Assembly (NCBI GenBank): GCA_008682415.1
Contig: VANK01000013.1
Coordinates: forward strand, 62,001 to 126,000
DNA length: 64,000 nucleotides
Origin: Acidobacteria bacterium AB60
GTDB lineage: Bacteria > Acidobacteriota > Terriglobia > Terriglobales > Acidobacteriaceae
Reading direction: 5' to 3'
The notes below the pieces were generated by a model. It had not been told where the DNA came from, did not search any database, and saw only the letters and a program-made list of their open reading frames with translations. The position numbers and the translations under genes are program-made. The first letter of the stretch is position 1. Each line of letters opens with the position of its first letter. Positions 1 through 38,982 of this stretch are shown here, piece by piece.

Positions 1-2304
1 GACGCGCCTAATGTTCTGTGGCGGAACAACGGGAATCGAACCTTCACCGAGTGGACGGAAGCGACCGGGCTTGGCGGTAAGGGGAAGACAGCGGCGGCGA
101 TCCTGACCGATTTCAATAATGATCGGGCGGTGGATCTGGCGATTACTGGTGATTCGCCCGCGCCGATGATCTATGTGAATCCGCGAGAAGGGAAGTACCC
201 GACGCAGGCGATTTACGAGGAGGACAAGCTGGCGCCCAGCGACGGGATCGCTGTTCTCGACTTCAACAAAGACGGATGGATGGACATTGCGGTGACGCAT
301 GCGGGCGATCCTGCTGTTACGCTGTGGCGCAATGTCGAGGGGCCGAATCATATTGGCCGAAGATTCGAGCGTGTGACTCTGCCGCTGGCGGGGGCGCAGC
401 GGGGATGGGGGCTCACGCCGGTGGATATCGACAACGATGGCTGGATCGACCTGGCGGTCGTGGTGGAGACTGCGGCTGGTCCACGGGTGCGGGTATTGCG
501 GAATCGAGGCGACGGCAGCTTTGACGATGTGAGCAGTGCTCTGGGGCTCGATCGAGTGACGCTGAGCAATCCGAGAGGTTTGATCGCGGCGGACGTCGAC
601 GGGGACGGTGCGACGGATCTGATTGTGACGCAGTTGAACGCGCCTCCCGTGCTGCTACGGAACGTGGGCGCGAACAAGAACCACTTCGCGCGGCTGGACC
701 TGAGCGGGTATGCGGACAACAAGACCGCTCTCGGGGTGAAGGTTGAAGTGTTCGCGAACGGGCATTGGCAGAAGTGGGAACTCGCCGGAGCGGTTGGGTA
801 CCAGACGCAGCCCCCGCCGCAGATCCTGGTGGGTCTGGGGCAGGCCGAGGGGATCGATTTGCTGCGGATTCTCTGGCCGACGGGCGTGCTGCAGGATGAG
901 GTTGACCTGCCGAAACTGGCGGAGGGGCGGGTGGTGATTCCGATGAAGGAGGCGGATCGCCGCGGGAGTTCCTGCCCAGTGCTGTTTGCCTGGAATGGAA
1001 AGCGCTACAACCTTGTGACGGATGTGATTGGAGCGGGCGTGGTCGGGCACTGGTTTACGCCGACGCGGCGCAATACGCCGAATCCCGGGGAGTGGATCAA
1101 AGTGGACGGCGCGAAGCTGGTTGCGGAGAGCGGCAAGCTGAGCCTGCGGTTCATCGAACCGATGGAGGAAGTGAACTATATCGACCAACTGCGCCTGGTT
1201 GCCGTGGATCATCCGCGCGGGGTGGAGGTGAATCCGGACGAGCGCTTCCTCGATGATCCCCCATTTGCGTCGGGGCGTGTGGTGGCCTCGGAAGGCATGC
1301 GGCTCCCTTTGCGGGCCTGGGACGGTGAGCAGCGGGATGTGACAGATGTTCTGAGCAGACGCGATCATCGGTTTGCCAGTGGATTCAGGGCGACGCCTTA
1401 CGATGGCTTCTCGAATCTTCATGCGTTGACGCTCGACCTGGGCGAGATTCAACCGGGCGCACCGCTTCGCCTGTTGATGACCGGCTACGTGAACTACTTC
1501 AGCGCCACTTCGCTGTATGGGGCGTGGCAAGCGGGTATCAAGCCGATCTCGCCGTATGTCGAGGCGCAGATGCCGGACGGAACCTGGCAGAGGATCCCAG
1601 GAGAGGCCGGGTTCCCGGCGGGGCTGGAGCGCACGATCGTGGTGGATCTGACGGGGAAGCTGCCGGCCGGCGTGCATTGCATCCGGTTGATGAGCAATCT
1701 CGAGGTCTATTGGGACCAGGTGCTGGTGGACCAGAGCGATCGAGCGGAGGCGCGCAGCACGGAGGTGCCCCTGGCAAGCGCGACGTTGCATTTCCGCGGC
1801 TACCCTCGACAAACGGAAGGAAGGAGCCCGGGTGATTTGGATTACGACTATAACCGCGTGAGCCTGACGGGCCCCTTCCAGCACCAGCGCGGCAACTACA
1901 CGCGCTTTGGCGATGTAACGGACTTGGTGAAAGGCATCGACGATCGTTACGTGATCTTCGGCAGTGGAGAGGAGATTGCGGCGGAGTTTGACCAGGCTTC
2001 ACTGCCGAAGCTGCCCGCAGGGTGGACGCGCGACTATTTCTTTTACGCGAATGGATTTGTGAAGGACATGGACTGGTGGGATGCTTCGCCGTTTACCGTG
2101 GCGCAGATGCCCTTCCACGGGATGAGCAAATATCCCTATCCGGAGTCGGAGAGGTTTCCGGAAGACTCCGGGGCACTCAAGTACCAACTTGATTGGAACG
2201 ACCGGTTTGATTCGGGTGAGCCTGTCCACTCGTACCGTTTCGACTATCGTGATCTTCCCTCGAGTCCGGCGGAGGACAAGAGCGCTGGAGCGAGTCTTCG
2301 GTGA
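1..2304 (+). CDS. CRTAC1-type FG-GAP/VCBS propeller protein with ASPIC/UnbV domain, 5' end outside window
   Basis: The frame is open to the left edge of the window, so the N-terminus and any signal peptide are missing. A GTG at 130 is only an internal codon. The visible part begins with VCBS/FG-GAP-like repeats (calcium-loop motifs such as DFNKDGWMD, DIDNDGWID and DVDGDGATD). An ASPIC/UnbV-type segment follows (VEVFANG ... ILWPTG), at about residues 230-305 counted from base 1. After it comes a C-terminal region of about 450 residues, starting near CPVLFAWNGKRY, that I cannot assign to a named domain. Such propellers are normally exported. The TGA stop overlaps the GTG start of the amidase (GTGA), so the two genes are translationally coupled. 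A second CRTAC1 protein lies at 6128-7795. The family call is firm; the function is unknown. Confidence 0.85.
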   Translation, partial: DAPNVLWRNNGNRTFTEWTEATGLGGKGKTAAAILTDFNNDRAVDLAITGDSPAPMIYVNPREGKYPTQAIYEEDKLAPSDGIAVLDFNKDGWMDIAVTHAGDPAVTLWRNVEGPNHIGRRFERVTLPLAGAQRGWGLTPVDIDNDGWIDLAVVVETAAGPRVRVLRNRGDGSFDDVSSALGLDRVTLSNPRGLIAADVDGDGATDLIVTQLNAPPVLLRNVGANKNHFARLDLSGYADNKTALGVKVEVFANGHWQKWELAGAVGYQTQPPPQILVGLGQAEGIDLLRILWPTGVLQDEVDLPKLAEGRVVIPMKEADRRGSSCPVLFAWNGKRYNLVTDVIGAGVVGHWFTPTRRNTPNPGEWIKVDGAKLVAESGKLSLRFIEPMEEVNYIDQLRLVAVDHPRGVEVNPDERFLDDPPFASGRVVASEGMRLPLRAWDGEQRDVTDVLSRRDHRFASGFRATPYDGFSNLHALTLDLGEIQPGAPLRLLMTGYVNYFSATSLYGAWQAGIKPISPYVEAQMPDGTWQRIPGEAGFPAGLERTIVVDLTGKLPAGVHCIRLMSNLEVYWDQVLVDQSDRAEARSTEVPLASATLHFRGYPRQTEGRSPGDLDYDYNRVSLTGPFQHQRGNYTRFGDVTDLVKGIDDRYVIFGSGEEIAAEFDQASLPKLPAGWTRDYFFYANGFVKDMDWWDASPFTVAQMPFHGMSKYPYPESERFPEDSGALKYQLDWNDRFDSGEPVHSYRFDYRDLPSSPAEDKSAGASLR

Positions 2305-3716
2305 GTGACGCGCCGCTGGTTTTGCTGCCTGCGGTTCGTCAGCTTGCGATGCTGCGTGCGCGGAAGATCAGCGTGGGGGAGCTGGCAGAGGCGCACATCA
2401 AGCAGATCGAGCGTTTGAACCCAAAGCTGAATGCGCTGGTTGACTTTGACGCCGAGCGAGTGCGAGAGCAGGCGCGCGCCATGGATGCGGGGCCGGATCG
2501 TGGTCCTCTGCATGGTCTTCCGGTGACGATCAAATCGTCAATTGCAACCGCCGGATATCGATGCGAGATTGGGAGTCTGCTGCATCAAGGCGACGTTCCG
2601 CGCGAGGATGCCGTAGTTGTGGCGCGCCTGCGCGCGGCGGGGGCTCTGATTCTTGGCACCACCAACTGCCCGGAGTTTCTCATGGCCTATGAGACGGCCA
2701 ACCTCCTGCACGGCCGAACAAAAAATCCGTGGGATCTGGACCGAACGCCGGGAGGCTCGAGTGGTGGCGAGTCGGCGGCCATTGCGGCGGGACTCTCCGC
2801 GGCCGGCCTGGGATCGGACAGCGGTGGGTCGGTGCGCGTCCCCGCGCATTTCACCGGCATCTGCTCCCTTAAGCCCACGCCAGGGCGAGTTCCGGGACGC
2901 GGACATCTGCCGCCCTGTGTGGGACCGTTTGCGATACTTGGCGCGATTGGCCCGATGGCACGTACGGCTTCAGATGCTTCCCTGCTTTTTCGCACGCTGT
3001 CCGGACAGGACGCAAGCGATCCGGTGAGCCCGCCGATTCCTGCCAAGGGGTCGGGTCTGGCACAAATCGCGATGCAGAACGTTGCGTTGTTCGAAGACGA
3101 TGGCATGGTTCCGGTGACCGCGGAGACACGCGCCGCAGTAAGGGCGGCAGGCGATGCCTTGCGGGCTGCTGGATTGCGCGTGGAACCTTTTCGCCCGCAA
3201 ACGCTCGAACAACTCCGAAAGCTATGGAGCAAATTCTTTGTGCAATGCGGCGCCATGTTTTATGAGCCCACGATCCGGGGGAGAAGCTCGAACCTCAGCC
3301 CCATTTTCCTTGAGTTTCTCTCGATAGCGGAAGGGATGCCTCCGCTCAGCGCTGCGGAGTTGCTCAACGCCTGGGCCGAACTGGATCTGCTGCGCGCAAA
3401 GACACTCGAGATCATGGCGGAGTATCCGGTGCTCCTTTGCCCGGTGGCGAGCATCCCGGCGTTTCGCCACGGAGAGCGCGCCTGGAGCGTCGCAGGACAA
3501 CAGGTGGACTACCTGGACGCGGTGCGTTACACGCAATGGTTCAACGCGCTGGGGGCGCCAGCGGCGGTGGTGCCGGTAGGCCAGTCGCCCGAAGGGCTGC
3601 CGATCGGAGTCCAAATCGCCGGCAGGCCCTTCGAGGACGAGACGGTGCTTGCCGTAGCGGAGCTGGTGGACGAGGCATTCGGGTATCGACCTCCGCCGCT
3701 GTGCAATGTCGGATAA
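2301..3716 (+). CDS. Amidase-signature family hydrolase
   Basis: This 471-residue enzyme belongs to the amidase-signature family, which hydrolyses C-N amide bonds with a Ser-cisSer-Lys triad. All three residues can be located: Lys78 in PVTIKSS, cis-Ser153 in PGGSSGGE and the nucleophile Ser177 in GSDSGGS. The length is normal for a GatA-like or stand-alone amidase. No GatB or GatC gene is nearby and the active-site context is not GatA-specific, so a tRNA amidotransferase role is unlikely. The GTG start overlaps the stop of the preceding CRTAC1 gene. There is no obvious signal peptide, so a cytoplasmic location is likely. The substrate cannot be predicted. Its coupling to an exported propeller gene is unusual and may tie it to the same pathway. 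Confidence 0.88.
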   Translation: MSDAPLVLLPAVRQLAMLRARKISVGELAEAHIKQIERLNPKLNALVDFDAERVREQARAMDAGPDRGPLHGLPVTIKSSIATAGYRCEIGSLLHQGDVPREDAVVVARLRAAGALILGTTNCPEFLMAYETANLLHGRTKNPWDLDRTPGGSSGGESAAIAAGLSAAGLGSDSGGSVRVPAHFTGICSLKPTPGRVPGRGHLPPCVGPFAILGAIGPMARTASDASLLFRTLSGQDASDPVSPPIPAKGSGLAQIAMQNVALFEDDGMVPVTAETRAAVRAAGDALRAAGLRVEPFRPQTLEQLRKLWSKFFVQCGAMFYEPTIRGRSSNLSPIFLEFLSIAEGMPPLSAAELLNAWAELDLLRAKTLEIMAEYPVLLCPVASIPAFRHGERAWSVAGQQVDYLDAVRYTQWFNALGAPAAVVPVGQSPEGLPIGVQIAGRPFEDETVLAVAELVDEAFGYRPPPLCNVG

Positions 3717-3889
3717 TCCGGAGTCAAGTTCATTCATCACAGACAAGCGTTCATCTGGCCGCTAGAAAACGAATGGGCGAGTAGCGATCAAGCGATATTC
3801 TGACGCTCCATCCTTCGGATGAGGCGTGGCCATTGTGGCGGGCGTAGCCTGATCCTTCCCCAGAACGGAGCAGGCGGCGTGCGTTCGAG

Positions 3890-4762
3890 TTGGCACGAGC
3901 GTTTTGGAGAGTTCCTGAAGTCCTGAAGAGCGCCCGACGCGATCGGACCATCGTGCGGGTGGGAGACATCGAGATCGGCGCCGGTGATTTCGTCACCATG
4001 GCTGGTCCGTGCTCGGTGGAGACGGACATTCAGTTGATCTCGACAGCCTGCCATGTGCGATCCGCCGGCGCCCGGATTCTACGTGGCGGCGCCTTCAAAC
4101 CCCGCAGTTCACCCTACGCATTTCAAGGGCACGGCCTGGCCGGTTTGCAGATGTTGGCGAGGGCGCGCGAGCGGAGCGGTTTGCCCGTGGTGACCGAGGT
4201 GATGTCAGAGTGCGATGTCGCGATGGTGGCCGAATACGCCGACATGCTGCAGATCGGTTCCCGCAACATGGAGAACTTTGCGCTGCTCGAGGCCGCGGCG
4301 CAATCGGGGAAGCCCATTCTTCTGAAGCGAGGGATGGTGGCTACCCTCTCCGACTTTCTGCGCTCCGCTGAGATTGTCCTGGAGAACGGCAATCCTAATG
4401 TGATTCTGTGCGAGCGGGGGATCCGCACTTTTGAAACCGCCCTGCGCAATACGTTCGACGTATCAGCGATCGTGCTGCTCAAGCAGATCTCCCATCTCCC
4501 TGTCATTGCGGACCCCAGTCATGCGGCGGGCTGCCGTGACCTGGTTCCAGCGCTCGCACGCATTGCGGTCACAGCAGGAGCCGATGGTTTGCTGGTTGAG
4601 GTGCATCCGAGTCCGGATGACGCGTGGAGCGATGGGGACCAGACCCTGAGCTTTGCCGATTTCGACGAGATGATGGTTTCGCTGAAGCCGTACGTTGGGC
4701 TGCGCGAACGACGGAATGATCCCGTGCACGCTGAGGCCATCGCGATGGGGGAAGCGCAATGA
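3890..4762 (+). CDS. 3-deoxy-7-phosphoheptulonate (DAHP) synthase, core-only form
   Basis: DAHP synthase condenses phosphoenolpyruvate and erythrose 4-phosphate, the first step of the shikimate pathway. The TIM-barrel signatures are present in order: AGPCSVE, KPRSSPYAFQG, QIGSRNMEN, LLKRGM, CERGIRTFE and DPSHAAG. The family is the short AroF/KDOP-like type I-beta class. Many members carry an N-terminal ferredoxin-like regulatory domain of about 70-90 residues. Here an in-frame TAG at 3845 leaves room only for about 20 residues before the barrel. The start is taken as TTG 3890 because a GTG at 3953 would cut into the first conserved strand; no strong ribosome site is visible. The stop overlaps the next ATG by four bases (ATGA). 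Being first in an operon of exported redox proteins suggests a specialised rather than housekeeping role. No other shikimate gene is in the window. Confidence 0.85.
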   Translation: MARAFWRVPEVLKSARRDRTIVRVGDIEIGAGDFVTMAGPCSVETDIQLISTACHVRSAGARILRGGAFKPRSSPYAFQGHGLAGLQMLARARERSGLPVVTEVMSECDVAMVAEYADMLQIGSRNMENFALLEAAAQSGKPILLKRGMVATLSDFLRSAEIVLENGNPNVILCERGIRTFETALRNTFDVSAIVLLKQISHLPVIADPSHAAGCRDLVPALARIAVTAGADGLLVEVHPSPDDAWSDGDQTLSFADFDEMMVSLKPYVGLRERRNDPVHAEAIAMGEAQ

Positions 4763-6126
4763 AGCGATTCCGGGGAGGCGTGTTTGCGGCTGCAGCGTTC
4801 CTGCCTTCTCTCATTTGCGGATTTCGAACCTCGGCGTTACATCAGTTGGCATTGCCGATGATTGCCACAGCTGCGCCGGTTTATCTTCCCCTGGCGGCAC
4901 TTGACTCTGGCGAGCGATTTCCGCAGGGTTCAAAGCTGGTACTGCTGCAGGATGGGCAAACTAAGCCGATCATCGACGGATTTGCGCAGACTGCGGATAG
5001 CAATCTTTCGTTCGATGCGGAGAGACTCCTCTTCGCCGGAAAGCGAACAGACAAAGATCGTTGGTCAATCTGGGAATATGCCTTTGCGGACCGGTCTGTA
5101 CGCCAGGTGATCGCAGGGGAGAGCGATCTGATCCGGCCACTTTATCTGCCCGCCGACCGAATTGTGTACTCCCGCAAGACCAGTCGCGGGTTCCAGATGG
5201 AGGCTGCCGGGAGGGATGGCTCCGGCGTTCTTCCACTCACTTTCATGGATGCCAGCGCAATCCCTGAATTTGTCCTGGCGGACGGGCGCATCCTTTTCCA
5301 GGCGGGATTTCCGCTGGGCACTTCGCTTGGACAGGGAGCGGTCCCCGAGTTGTTCCTGGTGTACTCCGACGGTTCGGGCGTTGAGTCGTATCGCTGCGAC
5401 CACGGTTCGGCCCGGTGGGGTGGAGGTCAGCTGAGTTCCGGAGACGTGGTGTTCACGCACGGTACGGAGCTGGCTCGCTTTACGTCTCCCCTCGCGGGCG
5501 AGGCCCAGATTGCGGCGCCTGCGGCGACCTACGCCGGATCTCCATTTGAGGCGGAATCGGGCGCGTGGGTGGTGAGCGCCCGTTCCGCAACGGAAGGGCA
5601 CTATGCGGTGCACGAGTGGCGGCCGGGGATGGCGCTGCGTTTGCTGTATGCCCTTAAGGACGAAGATCTGGTGCAGCCAATCCCGCTGGCCCCGCACAAG
5701 CGCCCGAATCGACATCCGACGGCTCTGCACAAGTGGGACTATGCAAATTTGCTGGCCCTTGATTCGCGACGGTCACGCGAGGGAGACCTGACCGCCCAAC
5801 CAACAACCGTGCGGCTCGAATCGCTCGATGCCGGCGGCAGGGTGGCTTTGCTGGGGACATCGCCGGTGGAAGCGGATGGATCCTTTTTCGTTGAAGTTCC
5901 GGGCGACAGGCCGATCCGCTTTGCGCTCCTCGATGACAAAGGCGCAGTTCTTCGTGCCGAACGAGGCTGGTTCTGGATCCGCAAGGGCGAGCAACGTTAC
6001 TGCGTGGGATGCCACGCCGGCCCCGAGCATGCTCCGGAGAACCGCGTGCCGCAGGTGCTTTTGCGCACGACCACGCCGGTTGACCTGACCGGCGCGCTCG
6101 GCCACTTTTCTCGGGGAGGGCAATGA
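4759..6126 (+). CDS. Exported mono-heme c protein related to hydrazine synthase alpha subunit (HzsA-like)
   Basis: A 455-residue protein with a probable N-terminal signal or anchor (hydrophobic residues about 8-45). A TolB/PD40-like propeller region follows at about 60-310. The C-terminal region has the pattern shared by HZS-alpha-domain proteins: PNRHPTALHKWDYANLL, DGSFFVEVPGDRPIRF, then GWFWIRKGEQRYCVGCH. The single heme-c motif CVGCH starts at Cys415. In anammox bacteria this domain belongs to hydrazine synthase, but related proteins occur widely in Acidobacteriota and Planctomycetes with no known reaction. Nothing else here indicates hydrazine metabolism. The gene overlaps the DAHP synthase stop by four bases and ends one base before the next ATG, so it sits inside an operon. 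A periplasmic electron-transfer role is inferred from the heme motif. Confidence 0.75.
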   Translation: MKRFRGGVFAAAAFLPSLICGFRTSALHQLALPMIATAAPVYLPLAALDSGERFPQGSKLVLLQDGQTKPIIDGFAQTADSNLSFDAERLLFAGKRTDKDRWSIWEYAFADRSVRQVIAGESDLIRPLYLPADRIVYSRKTSRGFQMEAAGRDGSGVLPLTFMDASAIPEFVLADGRILFQAGFPLGTSLGQGAVPELFLVYSDGSGVESYRCDHGSARWGGGQLSSGDVVFTHGTELARFTSPLAGEAQIAAPAATYAGSPFEAESGAWVVSARSATEGHYAVHEWRPGMALRLLYALKDEDLVQPIPLAPHKRPNRHPTALHKWDYANLLALDSRRSREGDLTAQPTTVRLESLDAGGRVALLGTSPVEADGSFFVEVPGDRPIRFALLDDKGAVLRAERGWFWIRKGEQRYCVGCHAGPEHAPENRVPQVLLRTTTPVDLTGALGHFSRGGQ

Positions 6127-6127
6127 G

Positions 6128-7795
6128 ATGCGGCATCGCTTGCTGCCTATGGCTGTCTGCTTGATGCTGCTGACGCTCGCTTCGCTGATGAGGGCGCAGT
6201 CCGTGAAAACAGCCGCGAATAGCGCGTCCCCGCTGTCCCCAATTCGTTTTGAAGATGCGACGGACGCGTCGGGCATCCATTTCACGCACAGCTTCGGTTC
6301 CCGCCAATTGGGGTCGCTTTTGGAGGGTACGGGCGCGGGATGTGTCTGGTTCGATTTCAATCATGACGGGCTGCCCGATCTATACGTTGCCAACGGGCGG
6401 CCGTTGGAAGACTCGATGCACCCGTACCCGCTGAAGGATAAGCCCAGCCCGCTTCCGCATAATCACCTTTATCGGAACGATGGCAATGGCCACTTTACTG
6501 ATGTCACGGAGAAATCCGGTCTCAGTCCGGACATGTACTCCATCGCCGTGGCAGCCGCGGATTACGACAATGATGGGTTCCAGGATCTGCTGGTCTCGGG
6601 ATACGGCAAGGTCATCCTCTACCACAACGATGGCAACGGCCACTTCACGGATGTGACCGACAAGTCGGGTATCAAGGTGGAGGGTTGGGCGATCGCCTCT
6701 ACCTGGGTCGATTACGACAGGGACGGATGTGTCGATCTCTTTGTCGGCCGTTACGTGAAGTTCGATCCCAAGTACCGCGCCTACTATGCCGCGGACAACT
6801 ATCCCGGGCCGCTGGATTATGAGGGCGAGACGAACAAGCTATTTCACAACAATTGTGACGGCACGTTCACGGATGTGAGCGAGAAGTCAGGGATTGCAGC
6901 GTTTGTGGGGCGCACAATGGGGGTCACCGCCGCGGACTTCGACGGGGATGGCTGGGACGACATTTACGTCGCCAACGATCGCACGGAGAACTTCCTCTTC
7001 CACAACAAGCACGATGGCACCTTTGAAGAGATCGCCAATGAAACGGGGACCGCGTTTGGGCAGAACGGCGAGTCGACATCATCGATGGGTCCTGCCTTTG
7101 CCGATTTTGAGAACCGGGGCATGCTGGACCTTTGGGTAACGGACGGGCACTATAACCGCTATCTCCGTAACTCCGGCAAAGAAGGATTCGAGGATCGCGG
7201 TGCGGCGAACGGAGTCTCGCAGACAAATGCGCAATACGTGAGTTGGGGAACGGGCGTTTACGACTTCGATAACGATGGCCTGCTCGATATTCTCGTGTTT
7301 CACGGCGGATTGATTCACCTGATACCCCAGGAGCACACCGTGTTCCGGGGCTTAGGCGATGCGCGTTTCAGCGACGTTTCGCGCCAGGCCGGAGAGGTTT
7401 TGAGCGTCCGTACGACGGCGCGCGGAGCCTGCTTCGCGGACTACAACAACGACGGCAAGGTGGATGCGTTCGTTGTCAATCTGGGCGGGCGGGGAACCCT
7501 GGTGCACAACGTTTCGGCGGAGACAGGGCATTGGCTCGCCCTGGACCTGAGGGGAACAAAGAGCAATCGGGACGGCATCGGCGCCAGGGTTGAGGTATTT
7601 GCCGGAGCGAAGCGCTGGACGGCCGAACGAATCGCCGGTTCGGGGTATCTCTCGCAGAATGATGGCCGGCTGCACTTCGGGTTAGGTTCGGCAGCGTCGG
7701 CATCCCGTGTGGTGATTCACTGGCCCAGCGGCCGGGAACAGGTCCTGGAAAATATCAACGCTGATCGCGTTGTCGCCGTGGAGGAGCCCCGGTGA
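6128..7795 (+). CDS. CRTAC1 family protein: FG-GAP/VCBS propeller with C-terminal ASPIC/UnbV domain
   Basis: The 555-residue product opens with a clear Sec signal peptide (about 1-23, ending near LMRAQS). At least six VCBS/FG-GAP repeats follow, with calcium-loop motifs such as DFNHDGLPD, DYDNDGFQD, DYDRDGCVD, DFDGDGWDD and DFDNDGLLD. An ASPIC/UnbV domain forms the last 90 residues (IGARVEVFAG ... IHWPSG). The protein is therefore exported, most likely a periplasmic or surface propeller. It is the compact form of the family; the gene at the left window edge is a longer relative with an added C-terminal region. The ATG follows the preceding stop by one base, and the TGA overlaps the next start (GTGA). 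ASPIC/UnbV proteins often accompany cytochromes and TPR proteins, but their biochemical role is not established. Confidence 0.9.
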   Translation: MRHRLLPMAVCLMLLTLASLMRAQSVKTAANSASPLSPIRFEDATDASGIHFTHSFGSRQLGSLLEGTGAGCVWFDFNHDGLPDLYVANGRPLEDSMHPYPLKDKPSPLPHNHLYRNDGNGHFTDVTEKSGLSPDMYSIAVAAADYDNDGFQDLLVSGYGKVILYHNDGNGHFTDVTDKSGIKVEGWAIASTWVDYDRDGCVDLFVGRYVKFDPKYRAYYAADNYPGPLDYEGETNKLFHNNCDGTFTDVSEKSGIAAFVGRTMGVTAADFDGDGWDDIYVANDRTENFLFHNKHDGTFEEIANETGTAFGQNGESTSSMGPAFADFENRGMLDLWVTDGHYNRYLRNSGKEGFEDRGAANGVSQTNAQYVSWGTGVYDFDNDGLLDILVFHGGLIHLIPQEHTVFRGLGDARFSDVSRQAGEVLSVRTTARGACFADYNNDGKVDAFVVNLGGRGTLVHNVSAETGHWLALDLRGTKSNRDGIGARVEVFAGAKRWTAERIAGSGYLSQNDGRLHFGLGSAASASRVVIHWPSGREQVLENINADRVVAVEEPR

Positions 7796-9451
7796 GGCAG
7801 CGCAGCGCAAGGGGAGGCATTTCCGGGATTTGGGCTGTTATCTGCGCTGGAGCGGTGCTGTTAATGGTGTCGGTGAGTGGGGGCGAAAGGATTCCGGCGG
7901 CGGCTCATGGTTCGCGCACGGGGGAGCATCTGGTCTATGCTTCGCCGATTGAGATGCTATTTTCGCGAGATGGCGCTCGACTGTATGTCCTTTGCCAGGA
8001 AGCTGACGAGGTGCGCGTACTCGATTCCATGACATTTGCCGAGTTGCGGGGTATCCCCGTGGGACACATCCCGCGCGGGTTTGCGCTGTCTCACGATGGA
8101 ACGAGGCTTTTTGTTGCGAACAGCTGGGACGATACTTTGTCCGTGATCGACACTCGAACGCTTCGTGTCACGGCAGGTCACCGTGATCGATGCAACCCGC
8201 GGGGTGGTTGTCGATCGCATCCTGCTTCGCGACGTCGCGCATGGATTTCATGCGGCGTTTTCGCGCGACGGGCGTTTGGGCGTGGTGGCTCAGCTGCACC
8301 CGAAAAACCTGGTTCCACTTGCGCATCTCGAACATGGCGGCGCGTTCGCTGACACGCTGACACTCTTCGGAGCGGATATCGGGAGCCCCGTTGAAGTGCC
8401 GCTGGACGAGCTGGAAAGGTATGCGGTTCGCCCCTTTGGCGTAGTGATTGCGCCCGACAAATCGCACATCTATGTCAGTTGTCAGGGTTCCGAGGTTGTG
8501 CTGGTGGTCGACGTGGCGCGGTTGATGGAGTTCGTGCATCGGCATCCAGGATCCAGCGCGAGTGACCTGTCCGCCAGCTCGCAGTATGTTTCTGCCCGTG
8601 TCGCGGTGGGCCACGACCCTCGCGGATTGTTATTGACGCCCGATTCGAGGAGGCTGCTCGTCGCTAATCGGCTCGACGACACGATCAGCGTTATCGACAC
8701 CAGGAGCGATCGGGTCGTCAGGACGGTTCAGCTCAGAAGTCCCCGACAGGTCTCCGTCCAGCGTCACGGCGAGCAGACCTTTTACACCGCGCGCTACTCC
8801 TTTCAGGGGCAGATTGGATGCGCCAATTGCCACATCGATTCCACCTTCGATGGCCTCACGTGGGATTTGGAACCGGATGGTTTTGGGCGCGACATCGTGG
8901 ATAACCGCCTTATTGAAGACCTGCGGGGAACCGAGCCCTACAAGTGGAATGGCGGCAATCCCAACCTCCCCACAGAATGCGGTCCACGTACTGAGATGTA
9001 CTTCTGGCGCTCAGAGAACTACGACAGCCTGACGTTGACGGATCTGATTGTGTATCTTCGCGGCCTGCCGCGGCGTCCTGCTCGCCTGCTCTCCCCGGCA
9101 GAGCTGACTCCGGCACAGGAGCGTGGCAGAACCCTGTTCGCCCGGACAGTGGACAAATTCGGCAAACCCATCTCTGAGGCAAATCGCTGTTCCTACTGCC
9201 ACGGCGGCCCGAAGGGCACAAATCAACGGTCCTTTGACGTGGGCACGCGCAGACCCACCGATAACGGAGGCGTGTTCGATACGCCGCAACTGACGAATGT
9301 TTCGCTGACGGCCCCGTACCTTCACGATGGTTCGGCGCGAACGCTAGAGGAGATCTGGACCAGGTTCAATCCCGAAGACAAGCATGGGCGCACGAACGAT
9401 CTGACCAAGGACGAACTGAACGATTTGATTGAATACCTGAGGACGCGATGA
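7792..9451 (+). pseudogene. YVTN beta-propeller / di-heme cytochrome gene split by a frameshift
   Basis: Two overlapping frames together resemble one exported YVTN-propeller plus di-heme cytochrome c protein. The first frame (7792-8352) begins with a signal peptide and the opening propeller blade, reading cleanly to about 8168 (DDTLSVIDTRTLRV). It then turns into non-family sequence. The family sequence resumes in another frame from about 8171 (QVTVIDATRG). At the junction part of a propeller blade also seems to be missing, judging from the blade periodicity, so a deletion between two similar VID-encoding stretches is more likely than a simple one-base slip. An assembly error is the main alternative. 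Without repair the heme-bearing part would lack a signal peptide and could not be matured in the periplasm. The flanking genes in the operon look intact. Confidence 0.65.
8165..9451 (+). CDS. 3' part of the split gene: YVTN repeats plus di-heme cytochrome c peroxidase-like domain
   Basis: This 428-residue frame carries the remaining YVTN blades (DTISVIDTRSDRVV is typical) at about residues 1-200. A cytochrome part with two CxxCH heme-c motifs follows: CANCH at Cys219 and CSYCH at Cys342. The C-terminus (TPQLTNVSLTAPYLHDGSARTLEEI, split here only by position) is typical of MauG/cytochrome c peroxidase-like proteins. Such di-heme enzymes act in the periplasm as peroxidases or as protein- and cofactor-modifying oxidases. 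The GTG at 8165 is a nominal start with no ribosome site and no signal peptide, so this is best read as the 3' portion of the broken locus. Its stop overlaps the ATG of the next gene (ATGA). Confidence 0.6.
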   Translation: MSRQVTVIDATRGVVVDRILLRDVAHGFHAAFSRDGRLGVVAQLHPKNLVPLAHLEHGGAFADTLTLFGADIGSPVEVPLDELERYAVRPFGVVIAPDKSHIYVSCQGSEVVLVVDVARLMEFVHRHPGSSASDLSASSQYVSARVAVGHDPRGLLLTPDSRRLLVANRLDDTISVIDTRSDRVVRTVQLRSPRQVSVQRHGEQTFYTARYSFQGQIGCANCHIDSTFDGLTWDLEPDGFGRDIVDNRLIEDLRGTEPYKWNGGNPNLPTECGPRTEMYFWRSENYDSLTLTDLIVYLRGLPRRPARLLSPAELTPAQERGRTLFARTVDKFGKPISEANRCSYCHGGPKGTNQRSFDVGTRRPTDNGGVFDTPQLTNVSLTAPYLHDGSARTLEEIWTRFNPEDKHGRTNDLTKDELNDLIEYLRTR

Positions 9452-10518
9452 AGAAGCTTTTTGCCATCTTCCTGCTGTTGGCAGGTTCCTCGGCCTTCGG
9501 GGCCGATCCGAAGATGCCCATGTATCGTTTCGAGAACTTCACCACGGCGACGGGTCTGCCGGACAATCACGTCTTCTCCGTCCTGGTGGACGGAGACCGC
9601 GTCTGGGCTGGAACAGAGAACGGCCTGGCGTTGTATGAGAATCGCGCCTGGAAGACCTACACCCCGGCCGACGGGCTGGCGCATCGGGCGGTCCTATCCC
9701 TGGCTCTCGATAAACGAACCGGGGATGTGTGGGCGGGTACGATGGGCGGGCTCAGCCGTATTTCGGCGGGACGCATTGATACCTTCACCCAGCTCAATTC
9801 GGGCCTGAGCAATGACGTGGTGTACGGGGTATCCGTCGAAGGGGGGAACGTCTGGGCGGCCACAGCGGCGGGCGCGTGCCGGCTGGATCTGCACTCGGGT
9901 CAATGGTCGCTGTACAACGAGCGCAATACGCCCATGAACGAGATCTGGGTGTACGCGGTGCACGCCACCCCTGCCAAGGTCTACTTTGCCGTCTGGGGCA
10001 GTGGATTGCTTGAGTACGACCAGAAGACCGGGAAATGGGACAAATACGACGACCCGGATGGTGAAACCGAGATGGTTCTCTTCAAGGATCAGGGCCTAAT
10101 TCATGAGATTGTCACGTCCGTCAGTTATGTGGACAATATTGTTTGGGCAGCCACTTATTTTGGCGACAGCCGATACGATGGCCGCTACTGGCATAACTTT
10201 CTCACCAAGGACAGCGGACTTCCCTCGAATTTCACCAACCAGGTGAAGGGTGTGGACGCCAATCGGGCCTGGTTCAGCACGGACAAGGGCCTGGCCTACT
10301 ACGACGGCGTCAACTGGGCTGTGTACCGCAATTCGCTGACCACCGGCACGCCCGAGATGACGGTTCGCGACGGGCAGGGAAAAGTGACATCGGTAGCGGT
10401 TACCACTGCGCCTGCCCACAACTACGTACTCGGAATCGATTTCCAGGGAGACGATATCTGGGTTGCGACCGCGAAGGGGCTGAGTCATGGGATACGACAA
10501 CAAGAAGGAAAAAACTAA
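9448..10518 (+). CDS. Exported Reg_prop-type beta-propeller protein
   Basis: A 356-residue protein with a short Sec signal peptide (about 1-20, LFAIFLLLAGSSAFGA). It then has repeated blades of the two-component-regulator-propeller kind: GLPDNHVFSVLVDGDRVWAGTENGL is the archetype, with DGLAHRAVLSLALD, SNDVVYGV and SGLPSNFTNQVKGV later. In known proteins these blades form the periplasmic sensor of hybrid histidine kinases. This protein has no transmembrane helix after the propeller and no kinase part, so it is a free periplasmic propeller. The ATG overlaps the stop of the cytochrome gene. The next gene, RidA-like, starts 13 bases downstream. It may dock onto or bind one of the heme proteins of the same operon, which is inference. 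Confidence 0.8.
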   Translation: MKKLFAIFLLLAGSSAFGADPKMPMYRFENFTTATGLPDNHVFSVLVDGDRVWAGTENGLALYENRAWKTYTPADGLAHRAVLSLALDKRTGDVWAGTMGGLSRISAGRIDTFTQLNSGLSNDVVYGVSVEGGNVWAATAAGACRLDLHSGQWSLYNERNTPMNEIWVYAVHATPAKVYFAVWGSGLLEYDQKTGKWDKYDDPDGETEMVLFKDQGLIHEIVTSVSYVDNIVWAATYFGDSRYDGRYWHNFLTKDSGLPSNFTNQVKGVDANRAWFSTDKGLAYYDGVNWAVYRNSLTTGTPEMTVRDGQGKVTSVAVTTAPAHNYVLGIDFQGDDIWVATAKGLSHGIRQQEGKN

Positions 10519-10531
10519 GGAGCAGTCAGGC

Positions 10532-11032
10532 ATGAGTACATTTGCAGAGGTTCTAGAAACGATCGCGCACGCACCCATCCAAAAGCGTGCCATTACCAAC
10601 CATGGCGTTCTCAATGAGGCATATGCCTACCCCAAGCCGAGTTCGTTCTCGCGCGGCATGCGCATCGATCTCAATGGCCTGACTATTCTGCTGATCTCCG
10701 GAACTGCCTCCATCGATGAGAACGGTCAAAGCGTGCATATTGGAGATTTCCGCGCGCAGCTTCGCCGGACTTACGACAACATCACCGGCTTGCTTGTCAG
10801 CGAAGGTTGCACCTGGCACGACATCGTTCGCACCACATGCTATCTGCGCGACATCGATCGGGACTACGAGGCGTTCAATGAGGAACGCACGCGGTTCTTC
10901 CACGAGCAGGGTCTTGATCCGCTACCCGCGTCGACCGGCATCCAGGCCCACCTATGCCGGCCCGAATTGCTGGTGGAGATTGAAGCGATCGCCATGTTCC
11001 GCACAGAGAGAGCAGCCGCAAGCAAGGAGTAA
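10532..11032 (+). CDS. RidA (YjgF/YER057c/UK114) family protein
   Basis: The 166-residue product has the RidA-family fold signatures: LISGTASIDENGQ, the core stretch with YDNITGLLVSEGCTWHDIV, and TTCYLRDIDRDYEAFNE. RidA proteins hydrolyse reactive enamine/imine intermediates. Relatives fused to or acting beside chorismate-using enzymes are also known. It is longer than classic RidA (about 130 residues) because of an N-terminal extension of about 30 residues. ATG 10532 is chosen over ATG 10487 because AAGGAG lies at 10517-10522, nine bases upstream. The earlier start would overlap the preceding gene. No signal peptide is seen, so it is cytoplasmic. It is one of two apparently cytoplasmic proteins in the operon, the other being DAHP synthase. 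The archetypal catalytic arginine was not confirmed by alignment. Confidence 0.8.
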   Translation: MSTFAEVLETIAHAPIQKRAITNHGVLNEAYAYPKPSSFSRGMRIDLNGLTILLISGTASIDENGQSVHIGDFRAQLRRTYDNITGLLVSEGCTWHDIVRTTCYLRDIDRDYEAFNEERTRFFHEQGLDPLPASTGIQAHLCRPELLVEIEAIAMFRTERAAASKE

Positions 11033-11036
11033 GAAC

Positions 11037-12998
11037 GTGAAAAGCAAGCAGTGGTTCCGGGCTGTGGCGGGCATCGCGGCGGCCGTGGGTGTGGTGTGCG
11101 CCTCTGGTCAGGAATCCAAGGTTTGCGAATGCGGAGCACATCCCCCCGGACCGCCGCGCGATCGAGTCGTCGCTCCCTACGCAGGCGAGCCCGGGGACTT
11201 GAGTCCCTATGCCAGGTTCGCCGCGCCATACGACCTGAACTATATTCATCCCAACATCTACTCTGGAGCCGGGCGGGACCTTCCCGAGCCGAAGGATCTT
11301 ACCGAAGTGCGCATCGGATTTTTCGGGCCCTTCGAGCACAGTCCTGAGGCGATCTTCGGAAAGCGGATGCTGAACGGCGCCCAGCTTTCCGTGGAAGAGG
11401 CCAACGTAAGGGGCGGCTACGGCGGCAAGCCTTTCCGTCTCATGCTTCACAACGACTACGACAATTGGCAGGCAGGATCGGTCTACGGCGCCGACCGGTC
11501 CACCGATCCGGCTATCTGGGGATCGGCCTCCAACGAGGTTGTGAAGATGGTTTATGACGACCAGGACTGGGCCATCTTTGGTTCCATCAGCTCGGAGTCT
11601 ACCCACATCGCGCTGCGGGTAGCTTTGCGCGCCGAGATTCCCATCGTCAACTCAGCATCGACCGATCCCACTATCCCGGAGACCTACATCCCCTGGTATT
11701 TTACGGATCTCCAGGACGACCGCGTCCAGAGCTACACACTCGCTCGACGCATCTATACCGAGCTGGGTCTCAAGCGGGTGGCCATTCTGCGCATCAACAG
11801 CCGATACGGTCGCTTTGGCGTGCCCAAGTTTCGTGATGCCTCGCGCCGGCTCGGGCATCCGCCCGTGATCGAGCAGAAATTCCTGCCCGGCGATACCGAT
11901 TTTACCCGGCAGCTCAAAGCGATCCAGGGATCGCGCGCCGACGCCGTGGTGCTGTGGGCTGATGAAATCCCTGCGGCACTTATCCTCAAGCAGATGCGCG
12001 CTCTTGGGATGAAACAGCGCGTGTTTGGCTCGTATCGCACCATCGGGCCCGAACTCCTTGCCGAAGCTGGTCCCGCAGCCGAGGGTTTCGAAGCGGTGTT
12101 TCCCTACGATCCCACGCGCGGTGATCCCGGCTGGATCGGCTTCAACCGGCGATATGAAGCGAGATTCCACGAGCCCCCGGAGCAATTCGCCGCTCTTGCC
12201 TACGATGCCATGAACGCGCTGCTTGATTCCATCTGCAAGGCAGGCCTTAATCGCGCGCGCATTCATGATGCACTTGCCAACATCGAAACCTGGAATGGCG
12301 TCACCGGGCAGATGGTCTTCGATCCCAACCAAAAGAATGTGGCGCCGATGTATCTCGCAGCCGTGCACGAGGGTGCGATCAGGTACCGGCTTTATCCGAT
12401 GGAGAAGATCCCATCCACGGATGTGAAGACCTCGGCGCACGCTGAAGAGATTGCGCCCAGAGAGCCCTATGCTCATGTGGGCGAGGACGGCGGAGGTCTC
12501 CCCGGGCCGGCTCGGTCTGATTTCTCCGAGAAGCCCTTGCGTGTAGTGCTATTTGGGAGAGGCGCAATGTTGGCGTCCCGGTCTGTCGAGATGCAGAGGG
12601 TCCTGGCTTCTGCCGGATCCATCCTGCAGTTGCTGCCCATATCGAGCGATCAAAACTGGGGCGCAGCTTCGACGGAGCTGGTGCACGCGTTGTTCGACGA
12701 GCACGCAGTCGCCATTGTCGCTCTTGATCGCGATGCGTCACATCTGGCCGAGCAATTAGCTTTGAAGGCTTTCGTCCCGGTTCTGGCCATCAGCACCGAT
12801 CGCACACTTACGTCAACCAATGTCCCATGGATCTTCCGCATGCCGGTATCGGCCACGCCTTCCAGCGCGATCGCCGTGCTCTGTGAGGCGGCGTCCCGTA
12901 GCGGGGGAAGTCCAGAGCGTCTTCGCACCGTGCTTGCATCCGGATCAGATCTTCAGGGAGTGAGATTTGGGCTCTCAGGAGAACCTCGGACGGAATAG
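11037..12998 (+). CDS. Exported type I periplasmic binding protein (LivJ/Peripla_BP_6-like) with an extra C-terminal half-domain
   Basis: The GTG at 11037 is preceded by AAGGAG at 11024-11029 and begins a 653-residue protein with a signal peptide (about 1-25). An in-frame open stretch further upstream overlaps the RidA gene and is not used. Residues about 70-440 match branched-chain-amino-acid-type binding proteins (VRIGFFGPFEHSPEAIFGK, IPIVNSASTDPT near 201, RRIYTELGLKRVAILR). After a linker, residues about 500-653 contain a second partial copy of the same fold: VPVLAISTDRT near 580, followed by VPWIFRMP, mirrors the first-domain stretch IPIVNSASTDPT ... IPWYF. A cysteine pair (CECG) follows the signal peptide. 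No ABC permease or ATPase is adjacent, so a sensor or carrier role is possible. SBP genes also accompany some PQQ alcohol dehydrogenase systems, but no such enzyme is in this window. This is the last gene of the operon. Confidence 0.8.
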   Translation: MKSKQWFRAVAGIAAAVGVVCASGQESKVCECGAHPPGPPRDRVVAPYAGEPGDLSPYARFAAPYDLNYIHPNIYSGAGRDLPEPKDLTEVRIGFFGPFEHSPEAIFGKRMLNGAQLSVEEANVRGGYGGKPFRLMLHNDYDNWQAGSVYGADRSTDPAIWGSASNEVVKMVYDDQDWAIFGSISSESTHIALRVALRAEIPIVNSASTDPTIPETYIPWYFTDLQDDRVQSYTLARRIYTELGLKRVAILRINSRYGRFGVPKFRDASRRLGHPPVIEQKFLPGDTDFTRQLKAIQGSRADAVVLWADEIPAALILKQMRALGMKQRVFGSYRTIGPELLAEAGPAAEGFEAVFPYDPTRGDPGWIGFNRRYEARFHEPPEQFAALAYDAMNALLDSICKAGLNRARIHDALANIETWNGVTGQMVFDPNQKNVAPMYLAAVHEGAIRYRLYPMEKIPSTDVKTSAHAEEIAPREPYAHVGEDGGGLPGPARSDFSEKPLRVVLFGRGAMLASRSVEMQRVLASAGSILQLLPISSDQNWGAASTELVHALFDEHAVAIVALDRDASHLAEQLALKAFVPVLAISTDRTLTSTNVPWIFRMPVSATPSSAIAVLCEAASRSGGSPERLRTVLASGSDLQGVRFGLSGEPRTE

Positions 12999-35939: not shown

Positions 35940-36402
35940 GGACTGAAAACCTCCAAGGGGGAAATTGGGGGTACTCGCTCAAGGATATCCCGCCGGCCCG
36001 CACCCCGGCCCCGCCGCATGCCCGAGGAAGGGAAGCGGAGAATCCAGCGATTCCATAGATCTGATTTGGATGCGCGGGTGCGCCGTGGATGCTCAAGCCG
36101 GATGATTGGCCTGACCTCGCTCTCAGCCGGGCAGCCCTGGTGCTCGCAGTGGGTACGGCCGAACGATTGTGGAGGGCGGCTGGAAGCGGTCCCGCGCCAA
36201 CCCTGCGGTTCTCCGGAACGCCGCGGAGCGCCCGATAGTATTGGGCTGTTTGACATTGCAGCACCCTGTGATTGCAGTCACTCGACAGCGGCAGATACGG
36301 ATGTTACATTCCCCCTTGGCTTTTTCCCCGGTGTACGCGAGGTCGCTGTTTCGGAATCGTATTCAATCAATACGGGCTTCAAACTTTATCTCGGGAGGAC
36401 AC
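35940..36402. other. Long leader region upstream of hppA
   Basis: About 460 bases without a believable gene; an open frame in phase with hppA runs through it but has no family sequence. A TTGACA at 36250-36255 could be a -35 box, but its -10 partner is poor. It is expected to hold promoters for hppA and for the divergent PA2779-like gene. Confidence 0.45.

Positions 36403-38982
<2,580 letters not shown>

Follow-up and report, generated by a model that had tools for sequence, protein, structure and literature searches.

A probable, recent out-of-frame deletion in an acidobacterial gene encoding a fused beta-gamma-type hydrazine-synthase-like subunit

The window analyzed here, the whole stretch of 64,000 nucleotides taken from contig VANK01000013.1 of the soil acidobacterium Acidobacteria bacterium AB60, contains the gene of a fused beta-gamma-type subunit from a hydrazine-synthase-like complex, most plausibly inactivated recently, a reading to which we assign a probability of roughly 0.68. 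One out-of-frame deletion of 242 or 260 bp would have removed about two propeller blades from the encoded protein. The sequence-only reading of this DNA had left a choice between recent inactivation in an otherwise intact operon and an assembly error; this pair of explanations stands, with inactivation the favored member, and the other genes of the cluster are all open frames in the window. The genes of the cluster and the parts of the broken gene are as follows.

1–2304, + strand: FG-GAP/ASPIC protein; the open frame begins upstream of the window (L095:8769)
2301–3716, + strand: amidase, below the NCBIfam cut-offs, with E down to 1.7e-103
3890–4762, + strand: DAHP synthase family enzyme (PRK08673 and TIGR01361 above cut-off)
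4759–6126, + strand: hydrazine synthase alpha-like subunit with propeller and middle domain, two genes upstream of the broken gene
6128–7795, + strand: FG-GAP/ASPIC-UnbV protein of CRTAC1 type (a name that follows passages of PMC12758564), lying between the alpha-like gene and the broken beta-gamma-like one
7792–8166, + strand: N part of the broken gene, 125 aa, with the first propeller blades and with propeller-repeat and hydrazine_beta matches
8165–8176, + strand: junction of the proposed deletion, where 7 nt (8167–8173) separate the last alignable N codon from the first alignable C codon
8167–8352, + strand: out-of-frame tail in which the N reading frame runs on to a TGA stop
8174–9451, + strand: C part, in the other frame, with the remaining blades and a di-heme CCP/MauG-like domain (CANCH and CSYCH)
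9448–10518, + strand: propeller protein (Reg_prop), its start overlapping the stop of the C part
10487–11032, + strand: RidA-type protein with an Endoribonuclease L-PSP domain (10520–11029 searched)
11037–12998, + strand: ABC-type substrate-binding protein (PF13458 on 11040–12995), the GTG start at 11037 chosen by eye

For the last of these genes, a mechanical listing of open reading frames places the start inside the RidA gene (10716–12998); by eye, the GTG at 11037, which follows AAGGAG, is the likely start.

On the + strand, family sequence starts at 7792, leaves its frame at about 8166 and is taken up again in a different frame between about 8174 and 9451, and both parts match consecutive stretches of the same orthologues, confirming the change of frame for which an exit near 8168 and a return near 8171 had been proposed. 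The N part begins with a GTG at 7792 that overlaps the stop codon of the preceding gene and has, as judged by eye, a signal-peptide-like N terminus. The C part, which as a listed open reading frame starts at GTG 8165 and spans 8165–9451 (428 aa), opens with VSRQVTVIDAT and by eye has no signal peptide, bearing out what had been suggested for the di-heme part; both CxxCH heme motifs near its C terminus, CANCH and CSYCH, are intact in the window copy. The GC content at third codon positions falls from 0.62 in the N part to 0.43 in the out-of-frame tail, and in the C part it is 0.70. At the junction itself, the first C codon encodes Gln in the window and Glu in 40 of 40 other sequences.

To determine the size of the loss, the window was compared with orthologues. 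Of 60 related genomes, 36 contain a match to the C part at E ≤1e-20, none of the matches listed for them having an internal stop, and a scan of one genome per species yielded 52 loci. After removal of rows with fewer than 190 residues upstream or fewer than 600 in all, 73 rows were compared (58 once copies identical in the compared part were dropped). A full-length orthologue is encoded in one continuous frame and has about 640 residues. The N and C parts are both matched by 71 of the 73 rows, L083 and L085 matching the C part only, and the stretch missing from the window measures 83 residues in 45 of these 71 rows, 89 in 22, 84 in one, 86 in one and 41 in two. The alignment that the sequence-only reading had proposed as a check thus returned intact, single-frame relatives with 83 or 89 residues more than the window in 67 of 71 rows; in the two distant 41-residue rows (L075 and L084) we think that the N match is shifted by one blade. 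Because 7 nt remain at the join, the absence of 83 or 89 residues corresponds to a net loss of 242 or 260 nt relative to most orthologues; both figures are 2 mod 3, so that a frameshift results either way. The same figures were obtained from VID-to-VID spacing in four loci. Amino acid identity to locus L036 is 58% for the N part and 77% for the C part, with similar values to L070.

The missing stretch was placed on a predicted structure of the protein of L036, which is the sister of the window in all nine gene trees. The prediction used 37 aligned sequences and has a mean pLDDT of 79.9, with the propeller mostly above 90 and the heme part lower in places. The L036 model has 28 propeller strands, read as seven blades of four, and the lost stretch covers six whole strands plus one strand cut at each edge. 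Judged on this model, about two of the seven blades are missing from the window copy, which falls short of a complete seven-bladed propeller. The partial blade deletion suggested previously is therefore correct as to the loss of propeller sequence and too small in extent, the loss amounting to about two blades and not to part of one. A Pfam search with only the 89 residues of L070 that are missing from the window turned up nothing at E 0.001. Some copies of the beta-gamma-like gene, L030, L031 and L032 among them, are longer by about 47 residues in the C-part stretch, about the size of one blade.

An assembly error, with an intact gene in the organism and about 250 bp lost in assembly or gap closing, is a considerably less probable alternative to a real deletion. 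The break occurs in no other locus examined, as such an error would have it; orthologues arranged in the same way, which the sequence-only reading had named as evidence against itself, were looked for among the matches in 60 related genomes and the 52 loci, and none was found. Only one of the 52 loci, L054, has the gene in two frames, and several are cut by contig ends and hold only part of the gene. We rejected L054 as a second broken copy because its break is an NN gap (L054:1654–1655; the same contig has three further NN gaps), and partial matches on contig 99 of G009 and contig 181 of G006 because both reach the contig end. The scaffold gap in L054, a metagenome-assembled contig, nonetheless lies in the same gene part and closes near the right edge of the break in the window, so this region may be hard to assemble. 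Against an assembly error, the window contains no N, and the longest word common to both sides of the join, 10 nt at 8141 and 8181, is present in both copies, making a simple repeat collapse unlikely. The survival of both copies also led us to reject recombination between the two VID-coding words, which would have left one. Moreover, the assembly is in few contigs (33), with 100% completeness and 0.37% contamination.

If the deletion is real, the state of the remaining sequence bears on its age. Branch lengths were compared among 24 loci, of which 17 to 24 were usable per gene, for nine parts; the terminal branch of the window is at least the median in all nine, at 1.4 times the median for the N part, 1.6 times for the C part and 1.0 to 2.3 times for the neighbors. 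In the same 24-locus set, the window departs at 0 of 15 invariant sites in the N part and 3 of 144 in the C part, with 0 to 3.7% in the neighbors. A larger set gives 4 departures for the C part among 123 otherwise invariant positions (rank 40 of 41), the junction codon being one of them. Relative to L036, pN/pS is 0.32 for the N part (80 codons), just above the highest neighbor, 0.21 for the C part and 0.08 to 0.31 for the neighbors; relative to L070 the values are 0.31, 0.19 and 0.11 to 0.38, respectively, although this is a weak test with synonymous sites near saturation (pS 0.60–0.75). The C-part departures from invariant sites and the N-part pN/pS relative to L036 are slight signs of relaxed constraint. 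Since decay is little or no greater than in the neighbors, the break is either recent or an artefact, and the good preservation of the rest of the gene is also predicted by an assembly error. We favor a deletion that would be present in the organism, would be recent and would have cost the gene its function.

It is very unlikely that the pieces remain functional, either as a shortened protein made by ribosomal frameshifting or as a separate C-terminal protein started near GTG 8165. The C part is free of stops, keeps both heme motifs and has a pN/pS within the range of its neighbors, as would be expected of a working product; however, about two blades are absent whichever frame is used, no ribosome-binding site is seen by eye before GTG 8165, the C part by eye lacks a signal peptide, and no locus examined has an arrangement of this kind. 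Programmed frameshifting was rejected on the first and last of these grounds. Less probable still is relocation of the missing part to another place in the genome. A whole-genome search with the intact L070 orthologue gave high identity at the broken locus only, other matches being at 27–40%; elsewhere in the 33 contigs only generic propeller matches occur, which largely refutes relocation, and no support for it was found.

Under the favored reading of a real deletion, translation from the normal start would end after 186 residues, the last 61 of them out of frame, and the di-heme part would be left without an export signal. In c-type cytochrome maturation an unexported di-heme part should not receive its hemes, and the C part should accordingly stay without them. 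From its reading frames, the sequence as it stands cannot give the normal exported cytochrome. Additionally, the start of the following gene (9448) falls within the stop codon of the C part, so termination at 8352 may weaken coupled translation; GAGG lies just before the ATG of this gene and could give it a binding site of its own. A further caution is that automated gene calling may enter the C part as a protein in its own right that lacks an export signal.

The broken gene is a distant relative of part of hydrazine synthase, the anammox enzyme, a relationship supported by both sequence and predicted structure. The L036 protein matches the NCBIfam model of the hydrazine synthase beta-gamma fusion at E 2e-47 (161.8 bits, cut-off 1250), and the window matches hydrazine_BC with E 4e-35 for the C part and 7.7e-08 for the N part. 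A profile of the orthologues matches the hydrazine synthase of Kuenenia stuttgartiensis (PDB 5c2v), with E 3.2e-68 over 342 positions of the beta chain and E 7.7e-46 for the gamma chain, so that the gene shows homology to the propeller of the beta chain as well as to the di-heme gamma chain; these are separate chains in Kuenenia and are fused here. Foldseek ranks 5c2v_B first for the L036 model, with a TM score of 0.85 by target length. Similarly, the alpha-like protein (4759–6126) contains the hydrazine synthase alpha middle domain PF18582 (E 3.4e-17), a search of PDB sequences with its profile returned 5c2v_A alone at E 0.01, and 5c2v_A and 5c2v_D lead the Foldseek matches of its predicted structure (pLDDT 80.2 in the best of five models, 58 to 70 in the remaining ones). 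The sequence-only reading of a YVTN/di-heme cytochrome described the domains of the broken gene and missed this link.

The curated NCBIfam cut-offs are missed by L036 and by the alpha-like protein (45.3 against a cut-off of 800), and important residues differ. With residue numbers from the relevant passages of PMC12758564, and the gamma numbering shifted by 39 as set by its CxxCH residues, the position of alpha Tyr591 is not Tyr (CSGCHYGSYR of 5c2v_A aligns with cvGchtGPer) and that of gamma His144 is Trp in both profile and window. Gamma Cys165, which forms a third heme bond, is kept, the Cys of TECG in the window aligning with it; it is not universal in distant relatives, being Asp in L074. 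The alpha-like protein has a single CxxCH (CVGCH). Judged by these residues, the complex is probably not a hydrazine synthase proper. The CCP_MauG domain and matches to MbnH and MauG models are common to the window gene and the di-heme CCP/MauG/MbnH family, from which the window gene differs in its fusion to a YVTN propeller and in its genomic neighborhood, which includes an alpha-like gene; the window gene also has Trp at the position described in PMC12758564 as important in CCP and MauG.

To assess how widely the cluster is kept, related loci were surveyed for its genes. The complete set of nine, in unchanged order (FG-GAP/ASPIC, amidase, DAHP synthase, alpha-like, CRTAC1-type, beta-gamma-like, propeller, RidA, and substrate-binding protein), is present at 17 of the 36 related loci; among the remaining 19, many are truncated by contig ends. 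The alpha-like, CRTAC1-type, beta-gamma-like and propeller genes are jointly present in 28 of the 36. The outer genes vary: neither the amidase nor the first FG-GAP gene is present in L056 and L069, L063 is in addition without DAHP synthase and RidA (8 kb of upstream sequence being covered in all three), and L055 has no amidase at the expected place. Among 35 genomes of the same genus, 29 have the alpha-like gene, 28 the beta-gamma-like gene, 27 the propeller gene and 29 that for the binding protein; all four are present in 27 genomes and none in six, and the other two, G006 and G029, are fragmented assemblies. The cluster (window 1–12998 with L095:8769–11001) is thus kept in most genomes of this acidobacterial genus. 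A second beta-gamma-like copy occurs in some of them (G009, G010, G018, and G030).

Hydrazine synthase homologue clusters have been divided into four clades, in which the most important residues are not conserved, according to the passages of PMC12758564 (2025) considered here, the same source reporting a gap at the alpha Tyr591 position in clades I–III. In those passages a CRTAC1 gene lies between alpha and beta-gamma in clades I and II, as in the window; moreover, beta-gamma has no extra heme motif in clade II and a second alpha heme is absent from clades II and III, again as in the window. By these described features, the window cluster fits clade II. Substrate-binding proteins are named there for clade III, and the window cluster also has one. 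RidA goes unmentioned in the main text of PMC12758564, and amidase and DAHP synthase are not named in the passages covered.

As a broken gene this case is ordinary; if real, it would represent a natural mutant of a widely kept hydrazine-synthase-like complex, whose phenotype could be compared with that of relatives carrying an intact gene, for example Occallatibacter savannae AB23 (L049). More speculatively, and as a long shot, the acidobacterial cluster (alpha-like, CRTAC1, beta-gamma-like and propeller genes, often with amidase, DAHP synthase, RidA and substrate-binding protein) might encode an exported hydrazine-synthase-like complex acting on nitrogen compounds outside anammox, of which this genome would be a natural mutant without the di-heme subunit. 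Elsewhere in the window, a gene for a membrane H+-pyrophosphatase (PF03030) lies at 36169–38982.
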